IMG/VR virus record: IMGVR_UViG_3300043446_004447
Coordinates: 1 to 37,272 of that record
Origin: a virus
Direction: 5' to 3' (one strand)
DNA: 37,272 nt
The position numbers were made by a program, and so were the translations under genes. Below the pieces are notes generated by a model. The model saw only the letters and a list, made by a program, of their open reading frames with translations. It was not told the DNA's origin and searched no databases. Positions 5,789 through 31,419 of this stretch are shown here, one piece after another (the stretch's first letter is position 1; every line of letters starts with the position of its first letter).

Positions 5789-6571
5789 TTATAGTTTATT
5801 TTCTATCTCTCCGCTGCGAATCTTGGTCGCACTAATTGCTTCGATCTCAGGCGGCAGATCAATCTTGCTAACTGTCCAACCAACCTCGCGACCATAAACA
5901 ACATCAACAATATTTGGCACAATTGCAACCAAGAATTTACCCGCATGCTCAATTAATTGTCGACGGATATTTGTGGCAACAGTTTGAGCGTCATACGGAT
6001 TCTTCTCGTCTCTTGGCATATCACGAACTGCAATACAGACCTGTCCATGTTTCTCAAGAGCCTTTTCAAAGAGTGCCTTATGACCGCCATGAAATGGTTG
6101 GTATCGACCAATCATCAATCCCGTTGGTGCAGAATGATTGAACTCGCCATCTTTAACATCAAGATAAATGTCTTGCGCTAGTTCTTCTACATTTGTAGAA
6201 TCATCTGTTTGATAGTTGCACCAGTTCGGTGTCTCGAATAATGCAGTTGTATCTTCGAAATTTCTCACAGGAGTTCGATTGCAATAAATGAGAATATCTG
6301 GCTTAATTAGATCGCGAAATTCATTCAGTGGGCAAACAAAATCCAGAATCACATGATAACCGTTTTCTGTGGCTTCCCTCGCACCTTCGATCATTCTCTG
6401 TAATTGTCGCTTTCTTCCATCAATGGAGAAATCCCAGTCATTAAATCTTCGGCGAAGAATGTCGCCATTCAATTCAATCGCTTCTGCTGCAAATTTTTGT
6501 TTAAGCAAAATGGAAAGATGAGTCTTACCAGTTCCAGGTAATCCACAAACAAGAATAATTTTAGGCGTCAT
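5789..6571 (-). CDS. Bifunctional APS-kinase-like P-loop kinase / NMNAT-like nucleotidyltransferase
   Basis: 260 aa with two fused domains. The N-terminal P-loop GLPGTGKT (10-17), LNGDILRR (34-41), a [10 protein letters not shown] region and VILDFVCP resemble adenylylsulfate kinases and related small-molecule kinases. From about 150, [14 protein letters not shown] (GRxQPFHxGH, nucleotide binding) and ISATKIRSG near the end (the ISxTxIR motif) mark a nucleotidyltransferase of the NMN/cytidylyl class. This order is the reverse of bacterial NadR (NMNAT then kinase). The substrate is not visible; NAD salvage or phosphometabolite activation are both possible. The start is set by the ATGA overlap with the upstream oxygenase stop, giving translational coupling. 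Confidence 0.8.
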
Positions 6572-7245
6572 ATAGGTATCCAATGGTTTACAAAATATTG
6601 ATTGTCTCGCATCGCATTTAAGTATCTAGGCTCATTAAATTGCGCATAATGCTTTTCAAATGAAATTGCAGGAACGATGTCAAATGCAATCGTTATTCTT
6701 GGACGATCTTCAAATTGCCACTCTGAACTTTTATGTATATCACCGTTACTTATTCCCATAACGATCAATCCATTTTTACTTGGAATGTCTATTGTTAGAT
6801 TTTTTCTTGTTGGATCTTTTGGCCAATGATAACTGGTGTATGAGTCGGGTTCAGTATCTACGCAAAGAAATCCATGCCAAGCCAAATAATTTTCTGGCTG
6901 ATGCCCATGCCAATCTATAAATTCACCTTTTTTATAGTAATTCAACCAACATTGCATAAAAAAACGATCTTTTATGTTTCTACCATAATAATCATCTATT
7001 GCAAGATGAAATGCATTGGAAATTTGAAAATACAGATCGTGAAGAATTGGAAATGGATATAACAATAAATTGTATTGTGAATATAATTTAGTAGTGATTA
7101 TACCTTGATCATTAAAATTAGATTTGAAATTCTGAAAAAACTCCTTTATGTTATTAAACATAAAATGAGAATTGTGTTTGAGTTCTACCAAATCAATATC
7201 AGAATCAATACCATATAATCCATCAATATATTTTCCGATTTTCAT
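6568..7245 (-). CDS. 2OG-Fe(II) oxygenase-like protein 1
   Basis: 225 aa. The pattern WLNYYKKGEFIDWHGHQPEN (H113/H115 region) followed later by GISNGDIHKS and RPRITIAFDIV fits a phage double-stranded beta-helix oxygenase: two histidines and an acid for iron, and an Arg before the last strand for 2-oxoglutarate. The first motif is HxH rather than the usual HxD/E, so iron binding is not certain. The ATG at 7245 is preferred over an upstream TTG because GGAG lies six bases before it. It is coupled to the downstream kinase gene by ATGA. Confidence 0.7.
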   Translation of the reverse strand: MKIGKYIDGLYGIDSDIDLVELKHNSHFMFNNIKEFFQNFKSNFNDQGIITTKLYSQYNLLLYPFPILHDLYFQISNAFHLAIDDYYGRNIKDRFFMQCWLNYYKKGEFIDWHGHQPENYLAWHGFLCVDTEPDSYTSYHWPKDPTRKNLTIDIPSKNGLIVMGISNGDIHKSSEWQFEDRPRITIAFDIVPAISFEKHYAQFNEPRYLNAMRDNQYFVNHWIPI

Positions 7246-8733: not shown

Positions 8734-8883
8734 TCAATGATGCGCACCCCAATGCATCATTTCAATTTGCCAAGAATCGTACTTCACTGGCTTCGGTGCA
8801 TTTTGTGCGTCTTTTTGTTCCTGTTTGATTTCCTCAACGGACTCCTCAAACGCCTTTTCAAATTCAGACTTTTCAGTTTGCAT
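8734..8883 (-). CDS. Small acidic protein, 49 aa, inside the tRNA cluster
   Basis: Begins MQTEKSEFEKAFEESVEEIK with a strong GGAGG ribosome site, then a Lys/Gln-rich helix and a tail WQIEMMHWGAHH with several His and Trp. The longer frame upstream would pass through two tRNAs and is not used. The family is not recognised. Confidence 0.7.
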   Translation of the reverse strand: MQTEKSEFEKAFEESVEEIKQEQKDAQNAPKPVKYDSWQIEMMHWGAHH

Positions 8884-8897
8884 ATTTCCTCCGATGA

Positions 8898-8971
8898 TGG
8901 TTGAGGTGCATGGATTCGAACCACGGTAAGCAGGATCAAAACCTGCTGTCCTACCACTAGACGACACCTCA
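8898..8971 (-). tRNA. tRNA-Gln (UUG)
   Basis: Acceptor TGAGGTG/CACCTCA, discriminator A, encoded CCA, anticodon stem CAGGT/TCCTG region with loop TTTTGAT (UUG). Confidence 0.95.
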
Positions 8972-8977
8972 ATAAAA

Positions 8978-9053
8978 TGGTACGCGATGACGGGTTCGAA
9001 CCGCCGACATTCGCCGTGTAAAGGCGACACTCTACCAACTGAGTTAATCGCGC
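8978..9053 (-). tRNA. tRNA-Val (UAC)
   Basis: Acceptor GCGCGAT/ATCGCGT with a G1-U72 wobble, discriminator A, encoded CCA, anticodon stem TCGCC/GGCGA with loop TTTACAC (UAC). Confidence 0.93.
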
Positions 9054-9428
9054 GAAATAAGTTGCTTCTCCCTGCTGGTGGTCACTTTTCATCCACTTCA
9101 CAACACAGGGAGATTATCGTATTGCCAACGACCGTTCGGTTAGACGGCAGATTTCTCTGGGCATCATTGACTCATCTGCGTTGCCACAGTGAGGTGTTGC
9201 CAAACCACCCATGCTTGTCACAGCATTTCTTTATCGTCTGGGTCAGACTAGCCACTAACAATGGCACGACAAGACAGCCGAAGCGTACATTGCTGCAGAG
9301 GCTTCGGGCATATTAGATTGTTATTCGCACTATTTGCTGCGTCTCACCTTCAGGTGTCTAGAACTGAAGTTTTCTTTCGGCGCAGTTACTCAGGCGTGAT
9401 CGTGCCCATGGCTTACGAATAACAAATT
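9054..9428 (-). other. 375-base structured non-coding stretch between tRNA-Ala and tRNA-Val
   Basis: No credible ORF and no tRNA T-arm signature is present here. Several inverted repeats are visible: TCTCCCTG at 9067-9074 with CAGGGAGA at 9106-9113 (8 bp), GCAGAT/ATCTGC around 9152-9178, and CCGAAGC at 9278-9284 with GCTTCGG at 9301-9307 (7 bp). It may hold one or more stable RNAs processed from the tRNA transcript, like the RNAs C and D of the T4 tRNA cluster. It does not contain recognisable RNase P RNA or tmRNA core sequences. Confidence 0.45.
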
Positions 9429-9503
9429 TGGTGGAGGATGAGAGAATCGAACTCTCAACTCTGCGATGCAAACGCAGCGTGTTCCCATTAGCACTAATCC
9501 CCC
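9429..9503 (-). tRNA. tRNA-Ala (UGC)
   Basis: Acceptor GGGGGAT/ATCCTCC contains the G3-U70 wobble that identifies tRNA-Ala. Anticodon loop TTTGCAT (UGC), discriminator A, encoded CCA. Confidence 0.96.
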
Positions 9504-9665
9504 AAAAATGGCGTGGGCTATCGTTCGCGGCTTGTGCCACTACTAGATTATTCTCAGTCACACCCCCACGCAGCATGACTTATTCCGTTAGACCTCATGT
9601 GTCGAATAATGTTACCCATACGGACAAACTCTCACATTATCAGGATGATGCGCGCATCATCAATT
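9504..9665 (-). other. Structured non-tRNA stretch between tRNA-Asn and tRNA-Ala
   Basis: A perfect 7-bp stem GCGTGGG/CCCACGC (9565-9571 with 9511-9517) encloses 47 bases and is followed on the minus strand by CA, so it ends like a tRNA acceptor, but D-, anticodon and T-arms are missing. A perfect 18-base palindrome (GATGATGCG plus its complement, 9644-9661) begins four bases after the tRNA-Asn CCA. It could be a decayed tRNA or a small stable RNA. Confidence 0.4.
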
Positions 9666-9740
9666 TGGCTGGCGAGGATGGGATCGAACCATCGACAACA
9701 GGATTAACAGTCCTGCGTTCTGCCGCTGAACTACTCGCCA
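9666..9740 (-). tRNA. tRNA-Asn (GUU)
   Basis: Acceptor TGGCGAG/CTCGCCA, discriminator G, encoded CCA, anticodon stem CAGGA/TCCTG with loop CTGTTAA (GUU), T-loop TTCGATC. Confidence 0.95.
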
Positions 9741-9743
9741 ATA

Positions 9744-10145
9744 TTAACCATATGGCTTCAGTCCTCTGGACTTTCTGCCTTTGCCATAATTCTTTCCACC
9801 AAATGTTGGCTGTTGACTGTCGCAATTCGGACAAATCAACTGGAAATTTTCTGGTCGATTATTTGTTGCATCACCATCAATATGATCGACCCAAAGAGTC
9901 AATGGCTTTCCGCGCCACTCTGATATTTTGCAAACACTGCATGAATATCCTTTCTCTTCGGTCAGCCATTTTCTAACGATGTGTCTTGGTAACTTTTCAA
10001 TTTTACCAGACTTCCACAATTTAATTCTTTCATTTCTGGTATACGCATGTTGACATTTTGCACTACAATATAATCCTTTTGTATTAGGAACATCTTCTTG
10101 TAGTTTACCGCAATGCGTACAATTAAATGTCTTAAATATTGGCAT
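9744..10145 (-). CDS. HNH homing-type endonuclease
   Basis: 133 aa. N-terminal zinc-finger-like pairs FNCTHCGK and YCSAKCQ (about 8-30), then the HNH core: CSVCKI, LWVDHIDGDATNNRPENFQLICPNCDSQQ (His of the DH motif, Asn, and CxxC zinc ligands). This is a small Zn-HNH enzyme of the kind that moves as a free-standing homing gene. It lies inside the tRNA cluster between tRNA-Trp and tRNA-Asn, three bases from the latter, a common insertion place for such genes. AGGA precedes the ATG. Confidence 0.9.
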   Translation of the reverse strand: MPIFKTFNCTHCGKLQEDVPNTKGLYCSAKCQHAYTRNERIKLWKSGKIEKLPRHIVRKWLTEEKGYSCSVCKISEWRGKPLTLWVDHIDGDATNNRPENFQLICPNCDSQQPTFGGKNYGKGRKSRGLKPYG

Positions 10146-10200
10146 TTTGTTTCCTAGTAGAACACTCTATAGGTATATATAGGAAACTACCCCAAAAAAC

Positions 10201-10276
10201 TGGCACCGCAGGAGAGACTCGAACTCCCAACAACTGGTTTTGGAGACCAGGATTCTACCAATTGAACTACTGCGGC
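10201..10276 (-). tRNA. tRNA-Trp (CCA)
   Basis: Acceptor GCCGCAG/CTGCGGT with a G1-U72 wobble, discriminator G (normal for Trp), encoded CCA, anticodon stem CTGGT/ACCAG with loop CTCCAAA (CCA). Confidence 0.95.
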
Positions 10277-10282
10277 AAAAAT

Positions 10283-10357
10283 TGGCGGTCTGTACGGGAA
10301 TTGAACCCGTCCTACGAAAGTGACAGTCTCGTGTACTCACCGATATACGAACAGACC
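10283..10357 (-). tRNA. tRNA-Asp (GUC)
   Basis: Acceptor GGTCTGT/ACAGACC, discriminator G (normal for Asp), encoded CCA, anticodon loop CTGTCAC (GUC), T-loop TTCAATT. Confidence 0.94.
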
Positions 10358-10363
10358 AAAAAT

Positions 10364-10443
10364 TGGTGGGTCCACTGAGATTCGAACTCAGAACAACTGG
10401 GTAAGATCTTACCCAGTTATGATAGCCATTTCACCATAAACCC
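10364..10443 (-). tRNA. tRNA-like gene with a palindromic, enlarged anticodon arm
   Basis: Acceptor GGGTTTA/TGGACCC, D-arm GTGA/TCAT, T-arm CTGAG-TTCGAAT-CTCAG, discriminator A and encoded CCA are all normal. The anticodon region is a perfect 24-base palindrome (AACTGGGTAAGA plus its complement, 10395-10418). It can fold into a 9-bp or longer stem with only GATC in the loop; with a normal 5-bp stem the loop would be 12 bases. The only anticodon preceded by U33 in that loop is CUU (Lys). Decoding identity is therefore unclear; it may be a pseudo-tRNA, a decoy, or a tRNA with an insertion. Confidence 0.7.
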
Positions 10444-10607
10444 ATAACAAATAAAATTGCAGCGGCGAAAGTCCCACCGTCTTTCACTTCACAAGCGTGG
10501 AATCTCCTCATAAAACTATTGCGAATGACCGCCACCTGCTACCGCAAGCACTTCGCTCTTTTTGGCGGATTGTCGTATGAAGACTACTGCAAAAACCTTT
10601 TCAATAT
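10444..10607 (-). other. Structured non-tRNA stretch between tRNA-Lys and the palindromic tRNA
   Basis: The 164 bases are closed by TTGCAG (10457-10462) with CTGCAA (10587-10592). Inside are CCGCCA (10529-10534) with TGGCGG (10563-10568) and a GAAAG/CTTTC hairpin around 10467-10485. No tRNA arms are seen. A 26-codon frame with ATG near 10515 exists but has no convincing ribosome site. A stable RNA or processing element is possible. Confidence 0.35.
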
Positions 10608-10682
10608 TGGTGAGACCACTGGGACTCGAACCCAGAACTTACTGGTTAAAAGCCAGTTACTCTACCATTGAGTTATGGTCTC
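10608..10682 (-). tRNA. tRNA-Lys (UUU)
   Basis: Acceptor GAGACCA/TGGTCTC, discriminator A, encoded CCA, anticodon stem ACTGG/CCAGT with loop CTTTTAA (UUU). Its anticodon stem is the same as the outer part of the palindromic arm in the tRNA at 10364-10443. Confidence 0.95.
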
Positions 10683-10702
10683 AAAAATAACATAACAAAA
10701 AT

Positions 10703-10777
10703 TGGTGAACCCAAGGGAATTCGAATCCCTATTCTTACCGTGAAAGGGTAATGTCCTAACCGTTAGACGATGGGTCC
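10703..10777 (-). tRNA. tRNA-Glu (UUC)
   Basis: Acceptor GGACCCA/TGGGTTC with one G-U, discriminator A, encoded CCA, anticodon stem TTACC/GGTAA with loop CTTTCAC (UUC). Confidence 0.94.
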
Positions 10778-10785
10778 AAAAATCA

Positions 10786-10899
10786 CCATATGGAAGCACA
10801 CTATGGAAACTGTGCCTTGTCATTGACATGCCTAACATTTCCGACTACCGTTGAGCCGACGCATCGAGTCTCGCTGGACGATAGTGTGCTTCAATATGG
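10786..10899 (-). repeat. Long inverted repeat (19-base arms) between tRNA-Thr and tRNA-Glu
   Basis: CCATATGGAAGCACACTAT at 10786-10804 pairs with ATAGTGTGCTTCAATATGG at 10881-10899; 18 of 19 positions pair, around a 76-base loop. The upstream arm (in transcription) includes the CCA end of tRNA-Thr. It is far longer than a tRNA acceptor stem. Likely roles are an RNase III-type processing stem or a stable RNA released from the tRNA precursor. Confidence 0.65.
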
Positions 10900-10972
10900 T
10901 GCCTTCAGAGAGACTCGAACTCCCAACCTACTGATTACAAATCAGTTGCACTACCAGTTGTGCTATGAAGGC
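10897..10972 (-). tRNA. tRNA-Thr (UGU)
   Basis: Acceptor GCCTTCA/TGAAGGC, discriminator A, encoded CCA, anticodon stem ACTGA/TCAGT with loop TTTGTAA (UGU). It is the first tRNA of the cluster in the direction of transcription. Confidence 0.95.
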
Positions 10973-11319
10973 GAATTGATACCTGCCCCAACTCCCGCAG
11001 AATATCGTGACTCACCGCGCAAGAATATGCGCAATAGAGTCTTACCCAAAAAATCATATTTTTTAAAGAGCAAGAGCAATCGCAGAGGACGCTCTATCAA
11101 TCAACCTTATAGACATATTCTAGCCCACAAGGGTGCAAATTACAACACTAAAAACTTTAGTAAAATCAACAACTTGCAATTTACACAAAAAGGTTCGCAG
11201 TTTTCGGTGCGGAGGGAGAATTCAAATGGCACCTTGGAACACTTCGTTCTACCTCATAAATGCGAGGGAGTCGCGAAACACTCTAGGAAATTAAATCTCA
11301 GCAGATTATATAGTACAAA
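10973..11319 (-). other. Leader and promoter region of the tRNA cluster
   Basis: About 350 bases without a credible gene. It holds the promoter-like element at 11117-11178 and then a leader of about 135 bases before tRNA-Thr. A second A/T-rich run (TTTAAAAAATATGATTTTTTG, minus strand, near 11060) may be another promoter part. Upstream of the promoter, 11197-11319 shows a weak GGTGC/GCACC hairpin and nothing else that I can assign. Confidence 0.5.
11117..11178 (-). promoter_or_regulatory. Bipartite promoter-like element, tRNA-cluster copy
   Basis: Minus-strand order: GCAAGTTG, TTGATT (11164-11169), 18 bases, TTGTAA (11140-11145), 17 bases, TAGAAT (11117-11122). The last two fit -35 and -10 boxes. 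The TTGATT block and the 18-base spacing recur in four other copies (15571-15630, 18938-18999, 19265-19325, 19327-19386). It would drive the tRNA cluster. Confidence 0.65.
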
Positions 11320-17822: not shown

Positions 17823-18695
17823 TTATACTCCACGAAAACAAGTTTGACGCGCAAGTTTCTGCCAATTCACTTTGTCCATTTTATACAGACCAGCAATCTT
17901 GCAGACCATGCGCAACGACAACTCACGCAGACGATCGATATTGTTTTCAATAAACTGAAGAATTAACACAGTCTCAACTTCGTTGAATCCGCGAGACTTC
18001 AGCATACCACCACGCACAACCTGCTTGATGCGAACAAGATAATCCATCTTCGTCTTCATCGCAAGATCAAGATAGTGCGAACGGGAAACCAACGCAGCAA
18101 AGTGCGGCGCAAGTTTGCTACCTGACTCGATCATGTTATCGAAATCGTAGTTGGTGATGAAGATGATCGAACCTTCAAACTCAAACTTCTCAGGCACGCT
18201 CTCGCCATCTTCGTCGGTCTCATTATCTAGAGACTTTGACAACCAATGCAGAACACGACGATCAGTCGAGTCGCACGCACCCTTCAGCAAATTCATGCTC
18301 ACATCGTCGTGAAAGATCGAGTCAGAGTCGTCGAACACAAGAATAGAATTGTGAAAACGAGAATTGTACAACAGTTTGTACAGCGAGAGCGGACGCACAT
18401 AACCTTTAATGTAGGTGGTGTGGAATCCCTTCTTTTCCAATTCCGCCATCTTCTGCTCAACCGTGTAGGACTTACCGAGTCCTGCAGGACCAGAAACGAT
18501 CAACGAACGATTGATGCCGCGACCAGTGGCGTCTGCCATGACCTCAAGAGCACCAAACCGATCAGCAAGTTTGGTTTCAATTTCTTCCAGCGACTCAACG
18601 CGCACAGGAATGCTCGGTGCGCTTTTCGGCGCAAATTGAGCAGCCATGCGCTTGCGCGTCATGCGGAAACCAGATTTCGGTACACCTCGCGGCAT
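17823..18695 (-). CDS. AAA+ ATPase
   Basis: 290 aa. Walker A GPAGLGKS at about residues 69-76, Walker B ILVFDDSDSIF at about 117-127, sensor-1 like IIFITNYDFDN, and a basic N-terminus (MPRGVPKSGFRMTRKRMAAQ). This is a conserved phage P-loop ATPase, loosely related to clamp-loader/DnaC-type proteins. It may act on DNA or remodel proteins; the target is unknown. Its ATG overlaps the upstream stop (TAATG). Confidence 0.85.
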   Translation of the reverse strand: MPRGVPKSGFRMTRKRMAAQFAPKSAPSIPVRVESLEEIETKLADRFGALEVMADATGRGINRSLIVSGPAGLGKSYTVEQKMAELEKKGFHTTYIKGYVRPLSLYKLLYNSRFHNSILVFDDSDSIFHDDVSMNLLKGACDSTDRRVLHWLSKSLDNETDEDGESVPEKFEFEGSIIFITNYDFDNMIESGSKLAPHFAALVSRSHYLDLAMKTKMDYLVRIKQVVRGGMLKSRGFNEVETVLILQFIENNIDRLRELSLRMVCKIAGLYKMDKVNWQKLARQTCFRGV

Positions 18696-19426: not shown

Positions 19427-19663
19427 ATGGATAATGTCATTGAACTACCTTACGCCAACCCTGTGAACGGTGAAATCTTTCGCCTGATCGGTCGCGATAA
19501 TTATGAGATGCTGATGGAAATGTATATCGCTATCGTTGACGACGAGTTTGATGATTGGTTTGATTTCTACTGCGAGTTTGATGGCTATATTGAGCACTGT
19601 GAAAACTTATCTAAACTCGCTGATGAAATTGCGCGTATGTTTAATGAAATGACTCTGAACTAA
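19427..19663 (+). CDS. Highly acidic small protein, 78 aa; the only plus-strand gene
   Basis: MDNVIELPYANPVNGEIFRL, then DDEFDDWFDFYCEFDGYIEH and an amphipathic helix. I count nineteen Asp/Glu against four Lys/Arg, so the net charge is about -15. This resembles DNA-mimic or anti-restriction-type proteins in composition only; no motif supports a specific function. It has its own copy of the bipartite promoter, a palindrome near the start site, an AGGG ribosome site, and a strong terminator six bases after its stop, so it is a free-standing transcription unit. Confidence 0.8.
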   Translation: MDNVIELPYANPVNGEIFRLIGRDNYEMLMEMYIAIVDDEFDDWFDFYCEFDGYIEHCENLSKLADEIARMFNEMTLN

Positions 19664-19668
19664 TAAAA

Positions 19669-19690
19669 ATGGGGGGCGAAAGCCCCCCAT
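19669..19690. terminator. Bidirectional terminator between the plus-strand gene and the porin
   Basis: ATGGGGGGC, GAAA, GCCCCCCAT: a perfect 9-bp stem with a tetraloop. On the minus strand it is followed by TTTTTATT, on the plus strand by CTTCTTTTC, so it is best for the porin transcript and usable for both. Confidence 0.9.
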
Positions 19691-19714
19691 CTTCTTTTCG
19701 GTATCGATTACCGA

Positions 19715-20920
19715 TTAGAACGCATAATTTAGATCAAGTTGTAGGCGATTATAGCCACGATTTGAAATCATCTTCATCGTTGCTAATGTTGCTGGTGGAG
19801 TCACAATTGCAACTGCCGACGGAACATTGATATTTGTTTCGTTGACAAAATATGTTGCATTGGCTTTCCAACCTTTCGATACTTGGTAAGCAGCACGGAA
19901 CGCATGTCCCTGTGATTCTGTGTTACCACCACCGAAATCAGAATCAACCCACTGTCCAAACAATGCATCTTTCTCAACCTTCTGGTGAAGGTATCCAACT
20001 TCCCAAGAACCAGGAAGGGATGCTTTGCCGAGTGTAACACCATATGCAAGAGCATTCTTGAATTTTGGTGCCTTATCGTTTTTTGCCCAATCAACAACAA
20101 GTGTGGCTGGTAGACCAGCAACCTTTGTGTTTACTTCAGCAAGTGCATTTACAACATCATAATCGTATGCAAGACATGATGCACCAGCAGCACAACCAGA
20201 TGACTTTGTTGTGTTACCGAATACACCATTGATTGTTGCTTGAGTGACGGTCTGATTCTTAACTGCTTTGTGGTTGAAATAACCAACAGCAACAGTCATA
20301 TTAGAGTCATCATTCAAACGATTCTTCATACCGATTTGATAACCAACTAGGCGAGTATCAACTGCAGATGCGCGCTCGATTAGATCTGTAGCGAACACAT
20401 TTGCAAAGATGCCTGTTGGTGCGTGGTTTAGCGCAACTGCTGCACCTTCTGGGTTGACATCCTTATCAAAGAAATAAGAACTTGTTGTCACCCATGGGTA
20501 CTTCATCTTACCTAGTGTTACCTTGGCAAGTGCGTTTGGTTGCCACTCAACATATGCTAGATCGAGATCTAGTGCTTTCTTCGAGTTAGCGTCACCGAGT
20601 GTCTGATTGCCTGAACGAGCATCACCATTTTCTGTAGTTGTGAAACCAACTTCAACTTTGGTGTTGTCATTTACGGCAGCAGTTGCACTCAAACGAACAC
20701 GAATACGATCACGATTGCGATCTACTGGATTGTATTGTTGAGTGATGTTTTCGTTGCGAAAACGAAAGTCACCCTTCCACTTCCAGCGAGTCGCAATATC
20801 TTTGGCAAGAACATCAGACAAGTTGTCAACAGATGCTTGAACATCTGCTGCACTTTGTGCAAATGAAGTGCCGCCGATCATAGATCCCAAAATAACAAAT
20901 GCTAGAATTGCTTTACGCAT
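19715..20920 (-). CDS. Outer-membrane porin (putative Porin_5-type)
   Basis: 401 aa. A Sec signal peptide MRKAILAFVILGSMIGGTSF ends near residue 22. A short helical stretch (VQASVDNLSDVLAKDIATRW) is followed by FRFRNENITQQYNPVDRNRD and repeated amphipathic beta strands with alternating aromatic ends. The chain ends LQLDLNYAF, with the C-terminal Phe needed for BAM-dependent insertion. It resembles bacterial 'putative porin' proteins of about this length. In the cassette with PstS, an anion or phosphate channel is the simplest role, but selectivity cannot be read. AGGAG precedes the ATG; 26 bases separate it from pstS; a strong terminator follows. Confidence 0.88.
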   Translation of the reverse strand: MRKAILAFVILGSMIGGTSFAQSAADVQASVDNLSDVLAKDIATRWKWKGDFRFRNENITQQYNPVDRNRDRIRVRLSATAAVNDNTKVEVGFTTTENGDARSGNQTLGDANSKKALDLDLAYVEWQPNALAKVTLGKMKYPWVTTSSYFFDKDVNPEGAAVALNHAPTGIFANVFATDLIERASAVDTRLVGYQIGMKNRLNDDSNMTVAVGYFNHKAVKNQTVTQATINGVFGNTTKSSGCAAGASCLAYDYDVVNALAEVNTKVAGLPATLVVDWAKNDKAPKFKNALAYGVTLGKASLPGSWEVGYLHQKVEKDALFGQWVDSDFGGGNTESQGHAFRAAYQVSKGWKANATYFVNETNINVPSAVAIVTPPATLATMKMISNRGYNRLQLDLNYAF

Positions 20921-20946
20921 ATCCTTCTCCTATCAATACCGCGAAA

Positions 20947-22002
20947 TTACGGCGAAAAGTTTTTGAGTGACTTCACATCTGCCTTTGTTTTTGCAAGTTC
21001 AGATTTACTCAATGGCACCAAGCCACGGTCAGAAAGATATCCTTCCGTACCTGCTGCCTTGTCACTCACATACTCATCCATAAATTCTTTCATGCCAGGA
21101 ATCGTACCAATGTGCGCTTTCTTGACATAAACGAACAATGGACGAGATGTCACATATTTAGTTGAAGCAATTGTTTCGAAGGTAGGGGCAACTCCATCGA
21201 TTGCCAAACCTTTGATTTTATCAGCATTTTCTTCAAGAAAACTGAAACCAAAAATACCGAGAGCCTCTGGTTTTGCTTCAATCTTCTGAACGATTAGATT
21301 ATCGTTCTCACCTGCTTCAACATATACACCGTCTTCACGGATTGTATCACAAATTCTTTTGAATCTCTTTTCATCCAAATCTTTGACACCTTTGATCCAA
21401 GGATAAGTTGAACAACCTGCTTCCATGAACAACTCAACAAAAGAGTCGCGTGTTCCAGAAGTTGGTGGTGGACCAAGAACTTCAATCTTGACTGCTGGCA
21501 AAGATGGGTTTACATCTTTCCATGTCTTGTATGGATTTGGAATCAACTCACTCGTGTTTGCTGGATTTGGTACTTGCTTTGCGAGTGCAAGATAAACATC
21601 TTTGCGAGTGAGCGCATTGAGTTTTCCTTTCTTTGACTCAGCAATCGTCAAGCCATCGTAACCAATTTTAACTTCAACAATTTCTTTTACACCCTTTTGT
21701 TGGCACTCAGCAAACTCTGCTGGCTTCATGCGGCGTGATGCGTTGACCATATCTGGGAATTGTGGACCAACACCATTACAAAATAATTTCACACCACCAC
21801 CTGTGCCAGTGCTTTCCACTTTTGGTGTCTTGAACTTGCCTTGACGACCAAATTGTTCAGCAACAGTTGTAGTGAATGGATAGACTGTTGATGAACCAAC
21901 AATCATAATTCCATCACGACCTGCTTGCGCATGTGCGAATGGTGCGAGTAGAATGCTTGTGAAAGCAATACTGGCTAAAGATGCTAATATTCGATTTTTC
22001 AT
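20947..22002 (-). CDS. pstS: Phosphate-binding protein PstS
   Basis: 351 aa, full length. Signal peptide MKNRILASLASIAFTSILLA...AHA (cut near 26). Phosphate-site blocks: IVGSSTVYPF (about 34-43), STGTGGGVKLFC, NASRRMKPAE, GYDGLTIAES, PPTSGTRDSFVELFM and a C-terminal SRPLFVYVKKAHIG. It would sit in the periplasm and deliver phosphate to the host PstCAB transporter, since no pstC, pstA or pstB gene is in the window. GAGGAAG lies upstream of the ATG. It follows the PlcP-like gene by 15 bases and precedes the porin, so one message is likely. Confidence 0.95.
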   Translation of the reverse strand: MKNRILASLASIAFTSILLAPFAHAQAGRDGIMIVGSSTVYPFTTTVAEQFGRQGKFKTPKVESTGTGGGVKLFCNGVGPQFPDMVNASRRMKPAEFAECQQKGVKEIVEVKIGYDGLTIAESKKGKLNALTRKDVYLALAKQVPNPANTSELIPNPYKTWKDVNPSLPAVKIEVLGPPPTSGTRDSFVELFMEAGCSTYPWIKGVKDLDEKRFKRICDTIREDGVYVEAGENDNLIVQKIEAKPEALGIFGFSFLEENADKIKGLAIDGVAPTFETIASTKYVTSRPLFVYVKKAHIGTIPGMKEFMDEYVSDKAAGTEGYLSDRGLVPLSKSELAKTKADVKSLKNFSP

Positions 22003-22017
22003 ATTTCTTCCTCTTTG

Positions 22018-22788
22018 TTAAAACTTTTCTATTACATTATCCTGATAATTATGAAGATAATCCACAATTTCCCAAGTACCATCATGATGCTCAACTAATG
22101 CTGTACAAGATTCAACCCAGTCACCATCATTCATATATTCAATACCGTTGATTTCTTTTATGGTTGCTCTGTGAATATGCCCACAGATCACACCATGTGA
22201 ATTATATTTTTTTGCATAGTCTGTTATGAGATTTTCGAAGTCTGACATATATGCAACTGCTTCTTTCGTTTTATTTTTTAAGAATGCACTCAAACTCCAA
22301 TAAGGCATATTGAATTTATTTCGGAGTTTATTGAGAAGGTGATTCATTGAGAGTAACACATCATAAAACCAGTCACCGACATGGTAGAGCCAAGAGAGTT
22401 TTGTAGCAAGTGCAGCGTCAAATAGATCACCATGAATAACCATATATCTTTTGCCGTTAATTGCGTTATAGCGACATTGATTTACCAATTCAATGTTACC
22501 AAAGCGAATATCGTAAGGAAGTAAATCCCTAAAAGCATCGTCATGGTTTCCCACAACATAAACCACTCGAGTGCCTTCTTTAGCAATCTTAAGAATTTTA
22601 CGGACGACATCTGTATGTGTTTGTAACCAAAAGAATTTTCGTTTTAGTCGCCAACCATCAATAATATCGCCGACCAAAAAGAGATTTTCGCAAGAATTAT
22701 CTTTTAAAAAATCTTTTAGCAATAAAGCCTTACATCCTCTAGAACCCAAATGTACATCAGATATAAAAATAGATTTATACTTGGTCAT
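22018..22788 (-). CDS. PlcP-like metallophosphoesterase (phospholipid-degrading family)
   Basis: 256 aa. Calcineurin-type metal motifs: SDVHLG (D11, H13), GDIIDGW (D41), GNHDD (N81, H82), IHGD (H119), CGHIH (about 215). Beyond these, it keeps the long blocks that I recall from PlcP, the phospholipase C of phosphate-starved rhizobia and marine bacteria: HLGSRGCKA, LVGDIIDGWRLKR, PYWSLSAFLKNKTKEAV and GDWVESCTALVEHHDG. PlcP splits phosphatidylcholine/PE/PG to diacylglycerol plus phosphoalcohol. Databases often label relatives UDP-2,3-diacylglucosamine hydrolase (LpxH-like), which remains the alternative. Start MTKYKSIFISD has AGGAG seven bases upstream. Confidence 0.85.
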   Translation of the reverse strand: MTKYKSIFISDVHLGSRGCKALLLKDFLKDNSCENLFLVGDIIDGWRLKRKFFWLQTHTDVVRKILKIAKEGTRVVYVVGNHDDAFRDLLPYDIRFGNIELVNQCRYNAINGKRYMVIHGDLFDAALATKLSWLYHVGDWFYDVLLSMNHLLNKLRNKFNMPYWSLSAFLKNKTKEAVAYMSDFENLITDYAKKYNSHGVICGHIHRATIKEINGIEYMNDGDWVESCTALVEHHDGTWEIVDYLHNYQDNVIEKF

Positions 22789-22790
22789 GA

Positions 22791-22809
22791 GTGCTCCTGA
22801 GGCGAGCAC
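22791..22809 (-). promoter_or_regulatory. Hairpin over the plcP-like ribosome binding site
   Basis: In the message: GUGCUC, GCCUCAG, GAGCAC, then UC and the AUG at 22788. The 6-bp stem takes up the last three bases of the AGGAG Shine-Dalgarno. Folding would block ribosome entry, so translation of the whole phosphate cassette could be regulated here. Confidence 0.55.
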
Positions 22810-22824
22810 TTATATAGATCGGAA

Positions 22825-23025
22825 TTATTTCCGTTGTATTAAAAAATGGGGGTCATCGGCTAAATGGATGAAAATATTTTTGAGTCCGTCCACCTGCTGA
22901 ATATGCCCCCATGGACCTGGACGCTTGGCTGAGTAATAGGAATCGGACTTACGAATGAGAACCCATTCGTTGCCGTATAATTCTAGAAATCTGTGACCGT
23001 AAAGGGATTTTGGCTGGAGAAACAT
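22825..23025 (-). CDS. Conserved hypothetical protein, 66 aa
   Basis: MFLQPKSLYGHRFLELYGNE, then WVLIRKSDSYYSAKRPGPWG, and IFIHLADDPHFLIQRK. The 'SAKRPGPWG...LADDPHF' pattern looks like a real conserved small phage protein. The function is unknown. The ribosome site is weak. It is the first gene after the TATAAATA box and lies 36 bases ahead of the plcP-like gene, so it may open that operon. An inverted repeat CGGAA-N4-TTCCG (22820-22833) covers its stop codon. Confidence 0.7.
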   Translation of the reverse strand: MFLQPKSLYGHRFLELYGNEWVLIRKSDSYYSAKRPGPWGHIQQVDGLKNIFIHLADDPHFLIQRK

Positions 23026-23162: not shown

Positions 23163-23408
23163 TTATGATGCAACAGTGAAAGATTTTACAAAAGGTAAAC
23201 GAAATGATCGCCACCCTGCTGCATCAATGTCCCACACTGAGATGTTTTGAGCAGTTGATTCTTTCATTGCATGTCCCTGTGGAACTGGAACATACTCTGG
23301 CAATAGAGTGCACTTCATTGTACGCTCTGTTCCATCAACCTTTGTAAATGTCACACTCATGATATTCTTACGCAACATTTCCAAAACTGTATCTCTTTCT
23401 AATTCCAT
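23163..23408 (-). CDS. WYL_2/DUF2693-like small SH3-fold phage protein
   Basis: 81 aa. VLEMLRKNIMSVTFTKVDGTE, RTMKCTLLPEYVPVP and VWDIDAAGWRSFRL are the blocks of a very common tailed-phage family with a small SH3-like barrel. Its role is not established; nucleic-acid binding has been suggested from the fold. One base from the upstream gene. Confidence 0.85.
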   Translation of the reverse strand: MELERDTVLEMLRKNIMSVTFTKVDGTERTMKCTLLPEYVPVPQGHAMKESTAQNISVWDIDAAGWRSFRLPFVKSFTVAS

Positions 23409-23409
23409 C

Positions 23410-23763
23410 TTACACCTGTGCTAGTATCGGCTTCAAACAATTTTGCGGTAACTTACAATCGCGGAAAGTCACTTTGATAATTTCCTTGATTGTTTTCTTG
23501 GGCATGCACCCTTCTTTTACCATCACTCCATTGTATCCTGCTTTGGCGTGATTGTCAATAAATCTCTTCACATCACCAATATGAGCCTTCATGAACTCGA
23601 TTGTTTCTGGTTCACCAGTTGGCTTGAATGTAAGAACATGATACTTGTAACATTGCAATTCTTCGTTGATTGGTGTTTTCTTGTCAGTGAAACGATAGAT
23701 TGTGGTTTCCAAATCTTCACCAGCGATCCCCCATAATGCTCCGTCGATGTCGTCTAGGTTCAT
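23410..23763 (-). CDS. Hypothetical protein, 117 aa
   Basis: MNLDDIDGALWGIAGEDLET start, FKPTGEPETIEFMKAHIGDV middle, then GCMPKKTIKEIIKVTFRDCK. Mixed alpha/beta. The family is not recognised. It is coupled to the UDP-xylose synthase-like gene by a TAATG junction. Confidence 0.65.
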   Translation of the reverse strand: MNLDDIDGALWGIAGEDLETTIYRFTDKKTPINEELQCYKYHVLTFKPTGEPETIEFMKAHIGDVKRFIDNHAKAGYNGVMVKEGCMPKKTIKEIIKVTFRDCKLPQNCLKPILAQV

Positions 23764-24704
23764 TATCTGCTCCTGAAGTATTCGATTGTTTTATCCAATC
23801 CCTCCGACAACGCAATTTTAGGTTCCCAGTCCAATTTGTCTTTTGCTAAATCAATAATCGGCTTGCGTTGCTTCGGGTCGTCAATTGTCTGTGGTTTGTT
23901 AACAATATAACCTTTTCCAACTTTCTTTCTTATTATACTCGCCAATTCAGCAATAGTAAACTCTCCTGGATTACCAAGATTTATCGGACCAGTTTCTTCC
24001 GAAAATGCAAATCTTGTAATCCCTTCAATCAGATCATCAATGTATTGAAAACTTCTTGTTTGTGTTCCGTCACCATAAATTTCGATTGGTCCGTCAGCCA
24101 ATGCATTTACAATAAAGTTGCTGACGACACGACCATCGTTCTTTGCCATTCGCGGACCGTATGTGTTGAAAATACGGAACACACCAATATTTAGATCGTA
24201 CTTTCTTTTGTAATCAAAGAATAAGGTTTCTGCTGCTCTCTTGCCCTCATCATAGCATGCACGAGGACCAGTTGTGCTCACATTACCATAATAACTTTCT
24301 GGTTGTGGATGAACTTCTGGGTCGCCATAAACTTCAGAAGTCGATGCTTGCACTACTCTGGCTTTGACTGCTTTCGCCACATCCAAGCAATTCTTCGCAC
24401 CAAGAATGCTGGTCATCATTGTATAGATTGGTTCTCGTTGATAATGAATTGGAGAAGCAGGACAGGCAAGATTAAAAATATAATCAATGTTCATTGTATC
24501 AAAACTGTTTGTAAACAACTTCGATGTAATGTCCATATTAAAGAAAGAAAAATTTGGATTATCAAACAGATGCTCAATGTTTCGCTTTGAGCCTGTATAA
24601 TAATTATCAACAGCGATTACTTTATATCCATCCTTGAGTAATCTGTCACAGAGATGCGATCCAACGAATCCAGCACCACCAGTCACCAAACATGTTTTAG
24701 TCAT
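23763..24704 (-). CDS. UDP-glucuronate decarboxylase (UDP-xylose synthase)-like SDR enzyme
   Basis: 313 aa, normal length. GGAGFVGSHL (9-18) binds NAD. NLACPASPIHYQREP, ASTSEVYGDPEVHPQ (T122 area), then GPRACYDEGKRAAET with the catalytic Y151 and K155 (YxxxK), NTYGPRMAKNDGRVVSNFI and TRSFQYIDDLIEG are characteristic of UXS, more than of other nucleotide-sugar epimerases. It would convert UDP-glucuronate to UDP-xylose. Partner: the UDP-glucose dehydrogenase-like gene at 268-1155. AAGGAT precedes the ATG; three bases separate it from the oxygenase. Confidence 0.88.
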   Translation of the reverse strand: MTKTCLVTGGAGFVGSHLCDRLLKDGYKVIAVDNYYTGSKRNIEHLFDNPNFSFFNMDITSKLFTNSFDTMNIDYIFNLACPASPIHYQREPIYTMMTSILGAKNCLDVAKAVKARVVQASTSEVYGDPEVHPQPESYYGNVSTTGPRACYDEGKRAAETLFFDYKRKYDLNIGVFRIFNTYGPRMAKNDGRVVSNFIVNALADGPIEIYGDGTQTRSFQYIDDLIEGITRFAFSEETGPINLGNPGEFTIAELASIIRKKVGKGYIVNKPQTIDDPKQRKPIIDLAKDKLDWEPKIALSEGLDKTIEYFRSR

Positions 24705-29224: not shown

Positions 29225-29884
29225 CTACTCCTGTGCGATGAATTGTGTAGAAAGGGGGAATACCTCAGCGATAACTTTAGCACACTCTTTAGCAATTTGC
29301 ATATGCTCAAGTTGAGTGCCGTTTCCGCTTCGGAGTTGTATATAGTGAATCCATGATCTTAATGTACCACTCATATACATGCGTGACATCGTCAACCCTT
29401 CAGGCAAAATCGCTCTGGCTTGTTCCTTCGCGATCCCGTTTTTTAACGCCCAAGTGTAGTCTTTTTTGACCTGTTCGATGAGTGCTCGCTGACGATTTTC
29501 CCATTCAAACTGCAACATAACATCGTTTGTTGGAATAGAATTTTGTCTATTTTTTTCATCTTGTAGACGAGCCTGGCGTGTTTGAAACGCTAGATCTTGA
29601 GTTGGATCAGCATATCGTTGTGAAAACTCTTGAAAACTAAACGAACGGTGCCTCAGAATCTGACGAGCAATGTCTCTTGTTGTTTCAATTTCAAGACACA
29701 TTGACGCCATTTCCAATGGTGACCAGTGCTGATGCTTGATCAAATACTTGATCAGTTTCTCAGATGTTTCATTATTCATTTGGTTCGAAGGGTTGGACAC
29801 TCTTGCGCAAAAAGCAACAAGGTCCGTTGGTGTGTCCAACCCCTCAAGAACTGGTTTCGAATAAGATATCAATCGTATGTGCAT
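29225..29884 (-). CDS. thyX: Flavin-dependent thymidylate synthase ThyX
   Basis: 219 aa. RHRSFSFQEFSQRY at residues 78-91 is the ThyX signature RHRxxSxxxxSxRY. HWSPLEMASMCLEI, LPEGLTMSRMYMSGTLRSWIHY and HMQIAKECAKVI complete the fold. It makes dTMP from dUMP with FAD, NADPH and methylene-tetrahydrofolate. Its start lies within the last 16 bases of the halogenase gene, and it is three bases from thioredoxin. Together with nrdJ it forms a nucleotide-supply block. Confidence 0.96.
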   Translation of the reverse strand: MHIRLISYSKPVLEGLDTPTDLVAFCARVSNPSNQMNNETSEKLIKYLIKHQHWSPLEMASMCLEIETTRDIARQILRHRSFSFQEFSQRYADPTQDLAFQTRQARLQDEKNRQNSIPTNDVMLQFEWENRQRALIEQVKKDYTWALKNGIAKEQARAILPEGLTMSRMYMSGTLRSWIHYIQLRSGNGTQLEHMQIAKECAKVIAEVFPLSTQFIAQE

Positions 29885-31419
29885 ACTCGCTCCAAATAAT
29901 CTCTATGGTCTAGAACATATGGTTCAATAAAATCTGTATATTCCTTCAAATCATTATAAACTTTAGCATATTTCTCATTGAGGTTGTTCTGCTGACAATA
30001 TTTTATAGCGCGATCTTTAAACCAGTTATTACCAATAATTTTAGAAACAAGGGCTGGTTCTTCAAATTGCGAGATATTATAAAATGCTTTATAATTGAAC
30101 TCTTCTTGTACAAATCCAGCCTCATATGCTTCTCGAAACACAGGTGGGCGATTTTCCACATTCTTATAATATTTCCAAAACTCAGTATCATTTCTATTAT
30201 TAACATAATGTGAAAAAATCTCACACACAGAAGATCCTTCTATTCGTTTTCTGTTTTTATGATTAACACTGCTCTTAAATTCTTCTGAGGCAGAGCCACT
30301 AAAGTCAAAGGCTTCCTTAACGAAGCCTTCGCTCAAATCCCGCATAGTTGTAGAAACTAAAGTTAAATTTGTAGCAGCCATTGGCTCTAAAAAATTTGAT
30401 GATAATCCAAGAGCAATACAATTACTGATAAATATATTTTCAAAAAAGCCAGTTTTAAATCTAAAGAAATTAACTAATTCAATTTTATGTCCAAGTTTTT
30501 CCTCAACTTCTTGGATTGCCTGTTCCTTGGTGATATAATTACTATCATACACATATCCACATCCATATCGCTTTTGAGTTGGAACTTTGAACATCCAACC
30601 ATATTTCATAGCAGTTGCTTGAGTATATGTTGGTATTTGTTTATCTGTTGGTAAAAAAAACGGAATTGCAGAATCAACAGTCAAATACTTACTATAGTCT
30701 ATCCAATTAGCGTTTAAATGTTTACCAATAATTAATCTAGCAAAACCTGTACAATCAAAAACAAAATCCACTTTATGGATTCTACCTTTATCATCTTCAA
30801 CGCTTTCAATTGGATAATGACCATTAATTTTTATGATCTTACCTTCATGTCGAATAACACCGCGATTCTCAGCCTTTTTTCGAAAAAATTTCGCTGTTAA
30901 TTTAGCATTAATATTGTAGGTTGATCCTTGGATTCGCATAAATGTGCTACTGAACTCATCGTCAATTTGTATTACTGGAACTTTGTTTTCTAGAGCAAAT
31001 TTATGCACTCCCACTTTATTGGGATCAATGTTATTAGCATAACAATATAAAAGATAATCAGGTACATTTTCCCGAGAAAGTATTTCAGAATTACGACCCC
31101 ATGGAATCCTGTTTGTATCTCTACTGCAAAGCCAAGGAGTAAAGGTGCTTAAATATGAACTATTTGGAAAATCCCAGTCATCAAATTTTATTGATGTTTT
31201 AATTGTTGCATCTGTCTCTCTTATGAATTCTCGTACATCAATATTAATAAAATTTAACATTTCTGAAAATGTCGAGGTTGTTGATTCTCCAGCACCAATA
31301 ATTCCAATTTCCTCGCTTTCAATAAGTTCCACGCTTAAATTTGGATTTATTCTTTTGCAATAAAGAGCAGCCATCCACCCTGCGGCACCACCACCTACAA
31401 TGAGAACTCGTTTGGACAT
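29869..31419 (-). CDS. FAD-dependent tryptophan-halogenase-like enzyme
   Basis: 516 aa. IVGGGAAGWMAALY (7-20) binds FAD, GIIGAGESTTSTF (39-51) is the GxGExT region, and K74 (ATIKTSIKFDDW) sits where the catalytic Lys of PrnA/RebH is expected. DCTGFARL is present. The flavin-halogenase WxWxIP motif is changed to WMFKVP (W274-P279). T4-like cyanophages carry similar proteins without known chemistry. Halogenation of an indole, another aromatic ring, or plain oxygenation are possible. It sits between peroxiredoxin and thyX; no dedicated flavin reductase is in the window. Confidence 0.88.
   Translation of the reverse strand: MSKRVLIVGGGAAGWMAALYCKRINPNLSVELIESEEIGIIGAGESTTSTFSEMLNFINIDVREFIRETDATIKTSIKFDDWDFPNSSYLSTFTPWLCSRDTNRIPWGRNSEILSRENVPDYLLYCYANNIDPNKVGVHKFALENKVPVIQIDDEFSSTFMRIQGSTYNINAKLTAKFFRKKAENRGVIRHEGKIIKINGHYPIESVEDDKGRIHKVDFVFDCTGFARLIIGKHLNANWIDYSKYLTVDSAIPFFLPTDKQIPTYTQATAMKYGWMFKVPTQKRYGCGYVYDSNYITKEQAIQEVEEKLGHKIELVNFFRFKTGFFENIFISNCIALGLSSNFLEPMAATNLTLVSTTMRDLSEGFVKEAFDFSGSASEEFKSSVNHKNRKRIEGSSVCEIFSHYVNNRNDTEFWKYYKNVENRPPVFREAYEAGFVQEEFNYKAFYNISQFEEPALVSKIIGNNWFKDRAIKYCQQNNLNEKYAKVYNDLKEYTDFIEPYVLDHRDYLERVCTYD

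Follow-up and report, generated by a model that had tools for sequence, protein, structure and literature searches.

What would a phage gain by carrying a phosphoesterase, a phosphate-binding protein and an outer-membrane porin side by side? In bacteria, genes of these three kinds normally serve under phosphate starvation. The question is raised by a 37,272-bp virus record, IMGVR_UViG_3300043446_004447, the whole of which we call the window. A first-pass annotation of this DNA had described three adjacent minus-strand genes with gaps of 15 and 26 nt, closed by one strong terminator, and its coordinates proved exact. The locus and its edges are laid out as follows.

17823..18695, minus strand: AAA/phrog_1250 phage gene, downstream edge of the swap slot (phrog_1250 2.7e-81; synteny in agt-bearing and pstS-porin-bearing relatives)
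about 19669-19690, minus strand: intrinsic terminator ending the cassette (fold, z -5.4)
19715..20920, minus strand: Porin_5 outer-membrane porin, 401 aa (PF16930 1e-26; beta-barrel model; bacterial context; signal peptide by inspection)
20947..22002, minus strand: pstS, periplasmic phosphate-binding protein, 351 aa (PF12849 5.5e-48; 9jwy 2.5e-84; signal peptide by inspection)
22018..22788, minus strand: plcP, PlcP-type metallophosphoesterase (phospholipase C), 256 aa (Metallophos PF00149, tree, metal ligands, GNHD and CGHIH motifs)
22825..23025, minus strand: 66-aa ORF directly upstream of plcP, shared by some close relatives, where it likewise precedes plcP
23163..23408, minus strand: WYL_2 (Sm-like) phage gene, upstream edge of the swap slot (PF10902; synteny)

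A ribosome site precedes each of the three genes: AGGAG (22794-22798) before plcP, which starts at 22788, AGAGGA (22009-22014) in the 15-nt gap before pstS, and AGGAG (20927-20931) in the 26-nt gap before the porin gene. The terminator RNA (minus strand, 19655-19725) folds at -30 kcal/mol with z = -5.4, and none of 200 shuffles folded as well. The interval first annotated (19715-23025) also takes in the 66-aa ORF, for which the family search returned no known family. Known RNA elements were sought in the cassette and none was found. A search for a Pho box there was negative too, so that induction by the host PhoB is unsupported at this locus and control by phage promoters is likelier. A phage gene need not have such a box. 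Upstream of the cassette lies a nucleotide-sugar epimerase gene (23763-24704), whose position is kept in many related phages.

The phage itself is probably lytic and T4-like. We read it as T4-like because it has a set of tRNA-like genes (22 were called) and T4-like replication and nucleotide genes, namely primase, ribonucleotide reductase and thymidylate synthase; the nearest relatives of the primase are those of S-CAM1 and Melnitz methylophages. One of the tRNA calls (10364-10443) is odd in having a two-base anticodon. A tryptophan-halogenase family gene (29869-31419; PF04820, 5e-86) adjoins thymidylate synthase, with ribonucleotide reductase near. As to the host, relatives of the porin were present in 27 of 274 genomes in the class of Aquitalea versus 2 of 289 in the class of Pelagibacteraceae, and the window PstS was about equally close to both classes (up to 63% identity in that of Aquitalea and 61% in that of Pelagibacteraceae). 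Together, the porin and PstS homologues only lean towards a host in the Gammaproteobacteria in the GTDB sense.

The assignment of the second gene to PstS was borne out by its match to the Pfam family PBP_like_2 and by the blocks GSSTV, STGTGGG and SGTRD, which are conserved in alignment with the solved periplasmic phosphate-binding protein 9jwy. Some bacterial PstS homologues are 61-63% identical to it. Its score fell below the cut-off of the NCBIfam model ptsS_2 (157.2 vs 206.6 bits), and a phage relative scores alike. In some viral PstS matches TAA stops appeared inside the matched region; because the length of the open frames is normal, we read these as matches that extend beyond the natural stop. 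Signal peptides had been claimed for PstS and the porin, and inspection, used here in place of a predictor, does find signal-peptide-like starts on both proteins and none on the phosphoesterase.

In Pfam, the 256-aa phosphoesterase matches only the general metallophosphoesterase fold (Metallophos, 3e-10). The blocks that had led to its description as PlcP-like (WRLKR, PYWSLSA and GDWVESCTALVEHHDG) are all there. A tree was built from viral (39), bacterial (63) and LpxH (6) proteins, with five Pelagibacteraceae proteins and further homologues taken from plcP-type loci as proxies for biochemically verified PlcP. The LpxH proteins fell apart from all others with a branch support of 100, and the window enzyme was placed inside the PlcP family, in a group of 24 proteins that are all viral (support 99). 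Its predicted metal ligands (D11, H13, D41, N81, H119, H204 and H206) are invariant among 30 aligned homologues, and its motifs GNHD and CGHIH recur in 62 of the 63 bacterial relatives. Judged from these features, the enzyme is of PlcP type and not LpxH, in agreement with the earlier description. In the same tree, the plcP genes on two MAG contigs assigned to Hyphomonas and Hellea (L121 and L122) sit among the viral sequences; these may be viral contigs that were binned into MAGs, or else kin of a donor.

The bacterial relatives of the phosphoesterase are plcP-type by their context. A full-length Agt-type GT4 gene was found in 65 of 80 bacterial plcP loci, nearly always within 300 bp of plcP, and genes for diacylglycerol kinase and histidine kinase recurred nearby. 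Sites resembling Pho boxes lay upstream in 35% of these loci, compared to 3% of shuffles. The pair plcP-agt has been proven experimentally to renovate lipids (PMC4796936, PMC9239053), and rescue of a Phaeobacter plcP deletion has been tested with SAR11 PlcP (PMC4796936). A gene for synthesis of a lipid free of phosphorus is not obligatory beside bacterial plcP and occurs there in about two-thirds of strains (PMC4796936).

Two findings had been named at first reading as grounds for rejecting it, a place of the phosphoesterase within LpxH and an absence of the three-gene set from all related phages, and neither was obtained. Searching IMG/VR with the window phosphoesterase yielded 111 relatives; 80 loci were retained from these, and 82 plcP-bearing viral contigs were compared, a set in which near-copies are counted and which is biased towards the query. 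The order plcP-pstS-porin was found in seven further contigs and pstS-porin-plcP in another, and we therefore do not regard the cassette order as a matter of chance. Counted over the 82 contigs, the gene next downstream of plcP was agt in 47 and a GT2/GT21-like glycosyltransferase in 8, while pstS and the porin gene followed in 7 and pstS in 5 more, where the contig ended early. Of the 82 contigs, 15 pair plcP with pstS as the window does. One 188-kb phage contig (L043) holds pstS, porin, plcP and agt together; the row at L043:3513-9751 reads AMP-dependent acyl ligase, HSP20-like protein, pstS, porin, plcP and agt. The acyl ligase recurs near plcP in several contigs. In eight others (L044, L048, L049, L066-L069 and L084) agt is absent and the gene after plcP encodes a GT2 glycosyltransferase that matches GT21 weakly; it is possibly another glycolipid synthase.

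The positions of these genes point to an exchangeable slot. Between the WYL_2 and AAA (phrog_1250) genes, agt-bearing relatives hold plcP-agt and those nearer to the window hold plcP-pstS-porin, and the flanks of both versions are the same. In a relative whose plcP is 83% identical (L014), a TonB-dependent receptor comes next instead of pstS and porin; this is an 834-aa protein (TIGR01782) encoded at 8803-11307, directly after plcP. We found no agt in the 37-kb window, and no gene for synthesis of a non-phosphorus lipid beside its plcP, nor was one found over the whole of a 197-kb relative (L012). The first reading of the cassette, made from a single sequence, stood as far as its three genes are concerned. 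What that one sequence could not reveal is that in most relatives plcP has an Agt-like glycolipid synthase as its main partner.

The viral Agt proteins, of the GT4 family, were judged by the His104-Asp256 pair and the UDP-sugar motifs given for SAR11 Agt/GTcp, an enzyme that makes glycolipids and in which, as studied in GTcp, the catalytic His and Asp are essential (PMC8231724). The His is kept in 45 of 45 full-length viral proteins and the Asp in 42 of 45, and the UDP-sugar motifs are recognisable but looser than in bacteria. In the tree the viral proteins grouped together (support 93). In most viral cases the reading frames of plcP and agt touch or have a small overlap, as judged with unrefined start codons. 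A close relative of viral Agt was sought in 50,697 deposited phage records and none was found, the best match being 29%.

Outside the metagenomic contigs, the isolate Pelagibacter phage Mosig EXVC030M (MT647606) has a plcP homologue (51%) directly adjoining pstS (44%). In contrast to the window, the two genes are divergent there and have neither a porin gene nor agt adjoining them. The Mosig plcP homologue is annotated as UDP-2,3-diacylglucosamine hydrolase. At 6266-6868 of this genome (L002), a gene with an Asp_Arg_Hydrox domain adjoins pstS and plcP. Ornithine-lipid hydroxylases (OlsC) are among the other proteins with that domain. The paper announcing Mosig is silent on both the plcP homologue and pstS (PMC7892664).

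For the third gene, comparison with OprO/OprP or with Porin_5 had been proposed. Only the Porin_5 part stood: the protein scored 94 bits against a gathering score of 22 for that family and did not match the Pfam family of OprP/OprO (Porin_O_P). The modelled structure (pLDDT 78, pTM 0.75) is a beta-barrel of general porin-like fold, nearest in the PDB to general porins such as OmpM1. OprP gave a TM-score of 0.52, and an OprP/OprO identity, ruled out by Pfam, is weak by fold as well. OprP and OprO are outer-membrane beta-barrels of phosphate starvation, and the window porin, though of another Pfam family and with a TM-score of about 0.5, is alike by association. The surroundings of the gene are the better evidence. 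Of the bacterial loci sampled, the seven whose porins are closest were inspected, and six had pho or pst genes: two have porin, pstS-like, pstC, pstA and pstB genes beside phoBR, two more have phoBR, one of these having a plcP in the vicinity (43.5% identity), one has a phoR-like gene and one pst genes. Among 12 upstream regions of bacterial porin relatives, 5 have Pho boxes that no more than 3 of 200 dinucleotide shuffles matched. In phages, pstS adjoins this porin gene on 19 of the 26 viral contigs where the porin occurs, with a spacing of about 30 nt (14-109), and 4 more have plcP nearby. The context of the bacterial relatives supports a tie of the porin to phosphate starvation, and selectivity for phosphate may go with it.

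Several other explanations have to be weighed against phosphate scavenging. The genes could be bacterial and mis-assembled into a viral contig, as the families are ultimately bacterial. This is scarcely credible, because gene order and phage flanks are the same in independent contigs, including those of 188 kb and 197 kb, the PlcP and Agt trees have virus groups, and plcP adjoins pstS in the isolate Mosig as well; an artefact of assembly is refuted by that isolate and by the independent contigs. We also consider it very improbable that the phosphoesterase is an LpxH-type UDP-2,3-diacylglucosamine hydrolase of lipid A synthesis. Its homologues in Mosig and S-SRM01 are so annotated, its nearest solved fold is that of LpxH, a calcineurin-like enzyme that likewise acts on lipid, and it gives weak matches to two NCBIfam LpxH models. 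These matches, of 43.6 and 41.3 bits, failed the curated cut-offs of 134 and 190, and the clade and the signature residues differ: GNRD is present in 6 of 6 LpxH proteins, and the window enzyme has neither this nor the LpxH-type HGHxH (HGHTH). Several bacterial genomes, moreover, carry both a PlcP-type protein and LpxH. Cut-offs, tree and motifs thus contradict an LpxH identity.

The remaining two alternatives concern purpose rather than identity. The porin might be a general diffusion pore for nutrients, or might change the receptor surface, with no tie to phosphate. That OmpM1 is its best model match and OprP a moderate one, and that Porin_5 is not the OprP family, would fit such a role; the pst/pho loci of its bacterial relatives, with their Pho boxes, and the fixed pairing with pstS in phages speak against it and leave it rather doubtful. 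The enzyme might also remodel the host membrane for another end, such as assembly, lysis or a surface change that keeps out superinfecting phage, with release of phosphate as a side effect. In most relatives plcP is paired with a glycolipid synthase, which alters membrane composition, and both phage attachment (PMC9938194) and predation (PMC9457565) are influenced by lipid composition. We think this unlikely, since 15 of the 82 viral contigs pair plcP with pstS and the porin is of pst/pho type.

We return to phosphate scavenging. Its starting point is what was observed above: the identities of the genes, their places in their families, the layout of the operon, the conserved co-occurrence and the slot exchange, and the PlcP activity, porin selectivity, timing and benefit that follow are drawn from family and context. 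During infection, cytoplasmic PlcP would cut host phospholipids such as PE and PG into diacylglycerol and a phosphorylated head group, and host phosphatases would free phosphate from the head group. External phosphate would pass the outer membrane through the porin, be bound by phage PstS in the periplasm and be handed to the host PstCAB. The gain would be phosphate for phage DNA. In agt-bearing relatives, Agt would turn the diacylglycerol into a phosphorus-free glycolipid and so spare the membrane; the window lineage has uptake genes in the slot of Agt and would rely on host lipid enzymes. Counted against this account are the lack of a Pho box and of agt in the window and the PstS score below the ptsS_2 cut-off. 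The joint role proposed at first reading, lipid phosphate together with uptake through porin and PstS, is nevertheless supported by the PlcP placement, the co-occurrence in phages and the pst/pho context of the porin. It is quite probable, in our judgement, that the three genes form an operon with which a T4-like phage of Gram-negative bacteria scavenges phosphorus from both lipid and external phosphate.

Phage phosphate genes and bacterial plcP-agt are each already known. The cyanophage pstS (PMC3429862) is likewise a phage-borne gene for a periplasmic phosphate-binding protein; the window adds a lipid phospholipase and a porin, and nothing here marks its phage as a cyanophage. The bacterial plcP-agt operon of SAR11, Phaeobacter and Methylosinus (PMC4796936, PMC9239053) has a PlcP of the same family, and relatives of the window share its gene pair, order and catalytic residues. 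The phage genes differ in forming a virus-dominated clade, and the window has pstS and porin in place of agt, with no Pho box found. The open-access literature searched, which leaves most subscription papers and all preprints outside, contains no report of phage plcP, agt or plcP-agt, and phage genes that would draw phosphate from the host membrane and replace its lipid are undescribed there.

The viral copies may matter for field studies. In the ocean, plcP abundance serves as a marker of phosphate shortage (PMC9457565), and viral copies could bias that reading. We also lean, by a modest measure, towards a wider view in which phosphorus mining by tailed phages is modular: PlcP strips phospholipid, Agt puts glycolipid in its place, and the exchangeable slot contributes a pho-type porin, pstS or a TonB receptor. 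If this is true, infection itself would renovate the host membrane, independently of the host Pho response. Some phages thus appear to be equipped for mining the phosphorus of the host membrane.
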